Source: Mesorhizobium ciceri WSM4083
GTDB taxonomy: Bacteria; Pseudomonadota; Alphaproteobacteria; Rhizobiales; Rhizobiaceae
Direction of reading: 5' to 3'
Length of the DNA: 64,000 nucleotides
Assembly (NCBI RefSeq): GCF_000519305.1
Contig: NZ_JAFG01000003.1
Location: 437,070-501,069, forward strand
Shown here: positions 10,732 to 28,794 of the stretch, one piece after another
How the letters are laid out: every line of letters begins with the position of its first letter
Numbering within the stretch: position 1 is the stretch's first letter
The notes under the pieces: generated by a model
What the model was told of the DNA's origin: nothing
The model's input: only the letters and a program-made list of their open reading frames with translations
Databases searched by the model: none
Made by a program: the position numbers and the translations under genes

Positions 10732-10902
10732 CCGAAACCATTTCGCCTGGGCGGCGTTGAAGATGCTGCGGGCCGTGTCAACCGGGCCTGGTGGTACGGT
10801 GAACAGGATGTCTTTTTCCCGGTTTCTCATCCTGGCCAACGAAACGGCAGACGAGCATCTGTCCCACCCGGCCCGCAGCGCCACGTATTGAGGGAGGGCG
10901 TC

Positions 10903-27739: not shown

Positions 27740-28168
27740 TTAGAAGGTGATCTTCACCGAAGCGGCGCTGCGCGTATGCGGACCGTGATGGACCGCCTCG
27801 ATGTTGTTGCCGTCGGGATCGAGCAGGAAGGCGGCGTAATAGCCGGGGTGATAGGGACGTTCGCCCGGCGCCCCATTGTCCGTGCCGCCAGCCGCCAGCC
27901 CGGCTTTATAGAAGCCATCGACCATGGCGTGGTCCCTTGCCTGGAAAGCCAGGTGATGGCGGCCGGTGAGTTTTCCCTGTGCGGCCCGGCTGTCGGCAGT
28001 GGAGACAAACAGCTCGTCGGCCCAGAAAAAGTCGGCGCCGCTACCGCCGATCGGGACATCGAGCGCCTGCAGGACCGCCTCGTAGAAACGCCGGCTGGCC
28101 GCGAGGTCCCTGACCACCAGTTGGATGTGGTCGATGAGGCGGCCGCGATGTAATTCCTGGGTTCCCAT
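27740..28168 (-). CDS. VOC (glyoxalase/bleomycin-resistance) family protein
   Basis: 142 residues from ATG 28168 (GGAGGAGG 9 nt upstream). Two beta-alpha-beta-beta-beta modules: RLIDHIQLVVRDLAASRRFYEAVLQALDVP and GRHHLAFQARDHAMVDGFY...GYYAAFLLDPDGNNIEAVHH. His, His and Glu metal ligands are in place (DHIQ, HHLAF, NIEAV). Substrate unknown. Confidence 0.9.
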   Translation of the reverse strand: MGTQELHRGRLIDHIQLVVRDLAASRRFYEAVLQALDVPIGGSGADFFWADELFVSTADSRAAQGKLTGRHHLAFQARDHAMVDGFYKAGLAAGGTDNGAPGERPYHPGYYAAFLLDPDGNNIEAVHHGPHTRSAASVKITF

Positions 28169-28240
28169 GAAAACGCCTCCTCCTGTGGGTTCGAATTTAG
28201 GTTCGGACAGGGCGTCGTCAATGCGGATACTTCCCAGCAA

Positions 28241-28352
28241 ACAAAAAGCCCGCCGGGAGGGGATCCGGCGGGCCTTTTGAAAGCATGTCTAGCCTTCAGA
28301 GGTCTGAGGGGGGATCAGACCTGGTAAGAACCTTTGTTGGCCGCGGAGGTTC
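28241..28352 (-). ncRNA. Structured small RNA candidate with C-rich loops
   Basis: On the minus strand three perfect hairpins follow each other: P1 GAACCT/AGGTTC (28352-28328), P2 AGGTCTGA/TCAGACCT with loop TCCCCCC (28322-28300), and P3 GCCCGCCGG/CCGGCGGGC with loop ATCCCCTC (28273-28248), ended by five U. C-rich loops that could pair with ribosome binding sites are typical of trans-acting alphaproteobacterial small RNAs. No coding frame competes here. No -10/-35 was pinned down. Confidence 0.6.
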
Positions 28353-28491
28353 CACCCGAACAAAAAAATTGCCGATGGCCGGTCGAAACCGCGGAATTCA
28401 AGCGGCGGAGGCGATTTCTTAGCGAGACCACTCACAGTTTGGAACTTTCCGCTCGCAACCGGGTTTGGTGGCGCGGTGGGAGGAATTGCGA

Positions 28492-28794
28492 TTGGATAGT
28501 TTTCAGAGGCTCGAAGCGCTGGTCGACAGCGCCGGTGTCGACGATATCGAGGAAGCAACCGCTCTGCTGCGCCGGTTCAAGGGCAGGTCGCGCGAGGTCG
28601 CGGCAGCCATCGACGAATTCATGCTCGATTTCATGACCTTGGTCTTCGTCGTCGAAAACGGCGAAGAAGGTTTCGAAAGGCCGGTCCGCGAGCTCGCTCG
28701 CACCAGGCTTTCAAAGCTTGAGCGGCTGGTGACTGTAACGGCGGAGGAAAAGCCGGCTTCCAGCGCCGGCCTATCCCTTCAGGATGGCGGCTAG
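28492..28794 (+). CDS. Hypothetical helical protein (TTG start)
   Basis: 100 residues from TTG 28492 with GGAGG 8 nt upstream; TTG 28465 is an alternative. All-helical: LEALVDSAGVDDIEEATALLRRFKGRSREVAAAIDEFMLDFMTLVFVVENGEEGFERPVRELARTRLSKLERL. No family. Its last 24 bp overlap the convergent aminotransferase gene. Confidence 0.55.
   Translation: MDSFQRLEALVDSAGVDDIEEATALLRRFKGRSREVAAAIDEFMLDFMTLVFVVENGEEGFERPVRELARTRLSKLERLVTVTAEEKPASSAGLSLQDGG

Follow-up and report, generated by a model that had tools for sequence, protein, structure and literature searches.

On the minus strand of the window, a 64,000-nucleotide stretch of the genome of Mesorhizobium ciceri WSM4083 within which all positions below are counted, lies what is, by its sequence, a conserved small RNA gene that encodes a known kind of RNA and, in the Rfam release searched, matches no family above threshold. 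The best explanation, which we consider probable, is a stand-alone gene for a trans-acting small RNA with a promoter of the kind recognized by EcfG, the sigma factor of the general stress response in alphaproteobacteria. The earlier note on this DNA had proposed a trans-acting RNA of the alphaproteobacterial type with C-rich loops, and this is still the best reading; in the 30 homologues the paired positions are kept. Its view of an RNA with a transcript of its own likewise agrees with a terminator hairpin at one end and invariant promoter-like boxes at the other.

Under the mechanism that we propose, transcription from GGAAC-N16-GGTT (28353-28329) would be started by a sigma factor of the ECF type, EcfG being the most likely one, and the resulting RNA of about 83-88 nt would end at its own terminator and fold into three hairpins. 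The C run of hairpin 1, near the 5' end, and the CCCCUC of the terminator loop would base-pair with target mRNAs, at G-rich stretches or at Shine-Dalgarno regions, a trans pairing like that of GsrN in Caulobacter and of the ar14 RNAs in Sinorhizobium. Judging from these features, the RNA probably tunes other genes under stress. The features of the locus are collected in Table 1.

Table 1. Features at and around the small RNA gene (positions within the window)
Feature	Position	Strand	Remarks
Small RNA as modelled, 88 nt	28241-28328	-	30 homologues with model R1
-35 box GGAAC	28349-28353	-	Predicted ECF/EcfG-type promoter; invariant in 30/30 homologous loci
-10 box GGTT (consensus CGTT)	28329-28332	-	GTT invariant in 30/30; abuts the modelled RNA
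Stem P1 of the earlier note	28328-28352	-	Overlaps the first RNA base; read here as promoter DNA
Hairpin 1	28300-28322	-	8 pairs; loop UCCCCCC at 28314-28308; 92.4% of cells paired, 30 sequences
Hairpin 2	28278-28298	-	7 pairs; variable loop without C-richness; 100% of cells paired, 6 counted pairs
Hairpin 3, intrinsic terminator	28243-28277	-	Loop AUCCCCUC at 28264-28257, then T-rich end
Sigma-70-like promoter TTGACG-N16-TAAATT	28194-28221	-	3' of the RNA terminator; 1 found vs 0.2 expected (shuffles)
Glyoxalase-fold (VOC) gene	27740-28168	-	PF00903, 48.8 bits; 3' of the RNA, outside the RNA gene
Divergent gene, 109-aa protein	28465-28794	+	Adjoins the RNA in 29/30 loci
Aminotransferase gene	30003-28771	-	Ends ~440 nt upstream of the RNA

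Strand, extent and fold of the RNA

The predicted fold belongs to the minus strand, on which the 88-nt stretch 28328-28241 reaches -44.6 kcal/mol (z -7.04), with none of 200 shuffles as good, compared with z -2.80 and 2 of 200 shuffles as good for the plus strand of 28241-28328. The true 5' end would fall within about 10 nt after the GTT of the -10 box, which gives an RNA of roughly 83-88 nt, shorter than the 112 nt assigned to it earlier. Both C-rich loops reported in the earlier note, TCCCCCC (28314-28308) and ATCCCCTC (28264-28257), are present, on the minus strand only, and the loop of hairpin 1 has a C run in all 30 homologues (six C in the window). The three-hairpin architecture proposed there survives in part, in that hairpin 1 and the terminator stand, the stem called P1 is read here as promoter DNA, and a hairpin that had not been listed (28298-28278) is conserved, alignment A3 showing 180 of 180 cells as paired. 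Thirteen pairs are predicted for the terminator hairpin, 97.2% of whose cells are paired over the 30 sequences.

The statement that no protein gene ends in front of this terminator is not quite correct, as the aminotransferase gene does so on the same strand. Such an arrangement would also be expected if the site were a mere terminator of the aminotransferase transcript, accompanied by chance hairpins and with no RNA gene present. However, a terminator-like site of its own lies directly after the aminotransferase gene (28764-28752; the scan gave 2 sites vs 1.3 expected by chance), and the fold z of -7.0, the 30 homologues with a conserved fold and the invariant boxes at the RNA start leave this explanation with hardly any probability.

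Promoter-like boxes upstream of the RNA

Of the 45 bases upstream of the RNA, the alignment of the 30 loci shows only GGAAC and GTT as invariant columns. The boxes are separated by 16 nt in 29 loci and by 17 nt in one, plus one free base before GTT, which is G in 14 loci, A in 9, T in 6 and C in 1. The 13 named Mesorhizobium records, many of which may be the same genomes, show both boxes alike (13/13).

In the window, these boxes take part in the six-pair stem GAACCT..AGGTTC that the earlier note called the perfect stem P1. The six pairs do form in the window, but 15 of the 30 homologues lack one inner pair and 7 lack the outer pair; in one and the same alignment, 86.7% of the P1 cells are paired vs 96-100% in RNA hairpins 1 to 3. 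The reading of P1 as a stem of the RNA is rejected, because its pairs are not kept across the homologues. Since AAC and GTT are reverse complements of each other, the promoter takes on the look of a small stem, and chance extends the AAC/GTT stem to six pairs in the window, where its outer base is the end coordinate of the earlier note, 28352. Judged by its sequence, P1 is most likely promoter DNA of the form GGAAC-N16/17-NGTT, of the EcfG type. The EcfG motif of Rhizobium etli is given as GGAAC-N16-CGTT (PMC3892343), and the sigma-T search described in the GsrN study relied on GGAAC and CGTT spaced 15-17 nt (PMC5869019). Promoters of this kind resemble short stems and can mislead RNA gene prediction, as happened here.

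The stress locus and the identity of the sigma factor

In the window genome, nepR is on contig C35 and the RNA on contig C2. The frames beside nepR, which we take from their sequence to be ecfG and phyR, lie in a region with ten GGAAC-N16-CGTT sites within 11.5 kb around nepR, all ten with C before GTT. The same 11.5 kb yield no GsrN-like RNA (Rfam at E up to 0.05; R1, the model of the RNA described below, at E up to 1). Genome-wide, GGAAC-N16/17-CGTT is not enriched (137 sites vs 172 for the reversed control), and both boxes followed by CCCC occur at 25 sites, three of which are the RNA locus, vs 26 for the reversed control.

Of the EcfG site, the RNA loci have GGAAC and GTT in 30/30 and the full CGTT in 1/30. 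Because C before GTT is scarce in the RNA genes, vs 10/10 at the stress locus, the sigma factor may differ from EcfG, or these sites may be deliberately weak. The same RNA could accordingly have a promoter served by an ECF sigma factor other than EcfG: 29 of the 30 loci lack the C of CGTT, as does every one of the 14 promoter-bearing loci of the two further RNA groups described below, and all ten stress-locus sites carry it. Against this, both the spacing and the -35 box match those of EcfG, and we know of no other alphaproteobacterial sigma factor with such a -35/-10 pair, so that an ECF factor other than EcfG appears unlikely. EcfG is retained as the most likely candidate.

Homologues and conservation

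A first DNA search of 61 genomes returned seven matches over most of the query (the query's own included), one match over 88 of 251 bases and some shorter ones. The covariance model R1 was built from eight of the first matches; it comprises the RNA only and starts after the -10 box. In 146 genus genomes, R1 identifies 30 homologues scoring 51-105 bits, with a cut-off of at least 51 bits; the 31st match (48.9 bits, genome G121) is a locus of the R2 group described below. At E 0.01, R1 matches 145 of the 146 genomes, but this tally mixes in other terminator-ending RNAs. The neighbourhood is alike in all 30 loci, 29 of them lying beside the gene for the 109-aa protein and one beside the glyoxalase-fold and aminotransferase genes. 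The exact pattern of hairpins 1 and 2 occurs in 13 named records, all from Mesorhizobium (including M. ciceri WSM1271 and strains of M. loti), and over 297 genomes drawn from the family R1 gives nothing above 41.3 bits outside the genus. None of the four best out-of-genus matches shows a GGAAC-type promoter before this RNA; one of the four is an ar14.

The earlier note had pointed to conservation of the paired positions and to compensatory changes in related genomes as what to look for, and both are seen. In the RNA-only alignment of the 30 homologues from the 146 genus genomes, 96.5% of the cells are paired, and double-sided pair changes occur in 9 cells vs 2.8 in shuffles that keep relatedness (0/500 as high). 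Since most stem positions are invariant (13 of 26 pairs never vary, and double-sided changes fall in four pairs only), the covariation support, which comes from few lineages, is modest.

Other matches of R1 concern different elements. Many genus genomes carry an RNA-like element of 66-70 nt with a C-containing loop and a terminator and no GGAAC before it (L152:688-835; L154-L160); the L152 copy overlaps with a match to BASRCI27 that stays below threshold (51.6 of 59.8 bits). Among 19 weaker or foreign R1 matches, one (L153) fits none of the described groups.

Genomic context

The RNA lies in an intergenic stretch of about 300 nt, between the glyoxalase-fold gene and the divergent gene. For the 109-aa product of the latter, no Pfam or NCBIfam match was found at E 0.001; relatives are present in 85 of the 146 genus genomes, with several per genome in some. 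Elsewhere in the window, a second small RNA is recognized, Rfam Atu_At1 (RF02496), at 10766-10874 on the plus strand (99.3 bits, full length).

The glyoxalase-fold gene follows on the same strand, with 72 nt from the RNA end to its start codon, an arrangement compatible with a cis-acting 5' leader or attenuator. This explanation is rejected, because the RNA and the glyoxalase-fold gene each occur without the other. The gene is absent at 8 of the 29 RNA loci with enough flank (the 30th, at a contig end, was left out of the count), and seven of nine RNA-less loci keep it with its own TTGAC..TAAATT, which precedes the gene in 7/7 of the printed RNA-less loci. A leader is therefore very improbable, and the TTGACG-N16-TAAATT of the window is probably the promoter of the glyoxalase-fold gene.

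Among the 38 close relatives of the 109-aa gene (E up to 2.4e-29), the RNA lies beside 29 and is missing at 9; on the strand inspected, the two boxes were seen in none of these nine RNA-less stretches. On quick trees of the neighbour genes, which cover genomes with such a gene and in which most supports are weak, the presence and absence of the RNA requires 2 changes (glyoxalase-fold gene, 28 rows) or 3 (109-aa gene, 38 rows). An RNA that was present first and then lost a few times would fit this distribution.

Further RNA groups of the same plan

Two groups of weaker R1 matches (37-49 bits) come from other loci and are further RNAs that share the plan. The plan consists of GGAAC-N16/17-NGTT, a hairpin with a C-rich loop near the 5' end, a second hairpin and a terminator. 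Two models without the promoter, R2 and R3, each based on three sequences, find 8 and 7 loci, respectively, in the 146 genus genomes at E up to 1e-6. In 8/8 R2 and 6/7 R3 loci, the motif GGAAC-N16/17-NGTT runs up to the RNA start or one base beyond it, the R3 locus without boxes (L211) being the weakest match. None of the 14 promoter-bearing loci has C before GTT. By eye, R3 shares with R1 the sequence around hairpins 1 and 2, and R2 shares mainly the plan.

The R2 type (L212-L219, in 8 of the 146 genus genomes) has other stems, a C-rich hairpin 1 loop and GGAAC-N16-GGTT at the RNA start. An R3 copy is present in the window genome itself (L210, contig C38:42042-42117, plus strand, 70.7 bits); GGAAC-N17-GGTT stands at its start, and its middle part is shortened.

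These groups suggest, and we put this forward tentatively, at somewhat short of an even chance, that in Mesorhizobium at least three scattered RNA genes that share one plan, two in the window genome and off the stress locus, could form a post-transcriptional arm of the stress response, gained, lost and altered in their stems by lineage, with a shared non-canonical -10 box that would set their expression apart from the protein-coding regulon.

Relation to ar14 and other Rfam families

The earlier note had suggested an Rfam search. At gathering thresholds, a scan of the window finds nothing at the RNA locus; a relaxed scan does give a candidate, ar14 (RF02344), as the best match, at 36.3 bits vs a gathering threshold of 58.8 (E 2.5e-5 in 380 bp). 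The window genome contains five ar14 copies above threshold, and the RNA locus is the sixth, below it. Three of these copies stand in a row (C1:190108-190584, minus strand, L050-L052), about 178 nt apart.

The RNA could then be a diverged ar14 member of the NfeR1 type, with anti-Shine-Dalgarno loops and transcribed by sigma-70, as its three hairpins, its C-rich loops, the best Rfam match of the locus and the five copies in the same genome would all allow. In ar14, as in the RNA described here, the terminator is the last of three hairpins and C-rich loops are thought to pair with Shine-Dalgarno regions (PMC7143759). However, a CCUCC-type anti-Shine-Dalgarno motif occupies all three ar14 loops (PMC7143759, and in the copies of the window genome as well), whereas the RNA is without CCUCCUCCC loops, its loops being UCCCCCC, a plain variable one in hairpin 2 and AUCCCCUC, so that only two are C-rich. 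The ar14 promoter is described as a sigma-70 promoter with a conserved motif (PMC7143759), in contrast to GGAAC-N16/17-NGTT in 30/30 loci here, and 0 of 35 ar14 loci (30 of relatives and the five of the window genome) have the latter in the 60 nt upstream. Furthermore, R1 scores these five copies at about 12-26 bits vs 104 for its own RNA, and a scan of 20 of the 30 homologous loci at E up to 0.01 matches ar14 in one (37.1 bits) and sX13 in three, all below gathering. Membership in ar14 is rejected on the sub-threshold score and the differing loops and promoter, and has only a slim chance of being correct.

The matches of sX13 (RF02232) to the three homologues reach 36-40 bits vs gathering 50, and that of anti-hemB (RF02837) to the window 23.9 bits vs gathering 49.5. 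Both families are from other classes, and the similarity is most likely one of plan only.

Comparison with GsrN and ReC64

The stand-alone RNA appears to work most like GsrN of Caulobacter, a likeness of features. GsrN also has a GGAAC-type ECF promoter directly upstream and a terminator at its end (PMC5869019), and the 5' hairpin of both exposes a C-rich loop, with six tandem C in GsrN (PMC5869019) and six C here. The -10 box differs, with CGTT in GsrN and GGTT here. Adjacency to ecfG-nepR-phyR served as a criterion for GsrN-like RNAs of Rhizobiaceae, and BLASTn matches of GsrN are reported only in Caulobacteraceae (PMC5869019). The RNA described here lies away from the stress locus, as does gsrN itself in C. 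crescentus.

The two RNAs also differ with respect to katG, a GsrN target that is not target-like for the RNA here. In 9/9 genomes, the chosen 250 nt before the katG start codon contain no run of at least five G, and the pairing energy of the katG leader with the RNA is within the null. As a target in common with GsrN, katG is rejected for these two reasons. The literature search found nothing that joins GsrN with Mesorhizobium. In the portion of the Mesorhizobium huakuii small RNA table available from PMC5596092, no entry could be tied to the RNA by strand, flanks and length, and the RNA may still be there.

ReC64 of Rhizobium etli, likened here by description, not by sequence, is an 88-nt small RNA and thus similar in length (PMC3892343). 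Its EcfG1 promoter was proven by fusions and 5' RACE; it adjoins phyR-tcrY (PMC3892343), whereas the RNA described here lies elsewhere. From what these sources describe, EcfG-linked small RNAs of alphaproteobacteria are few (GsrN, ReC64 and proposed relatives) and were mostly recognized beside the stress locus (PMC5869019, PMC3892343). If the Mesorhizobium RNA is EcfG-driven, then stress-response RNAs in these symbionts also sit off the stress locus, in several forms, and such RNAs could be found by their promoter and C-loop hairpin.
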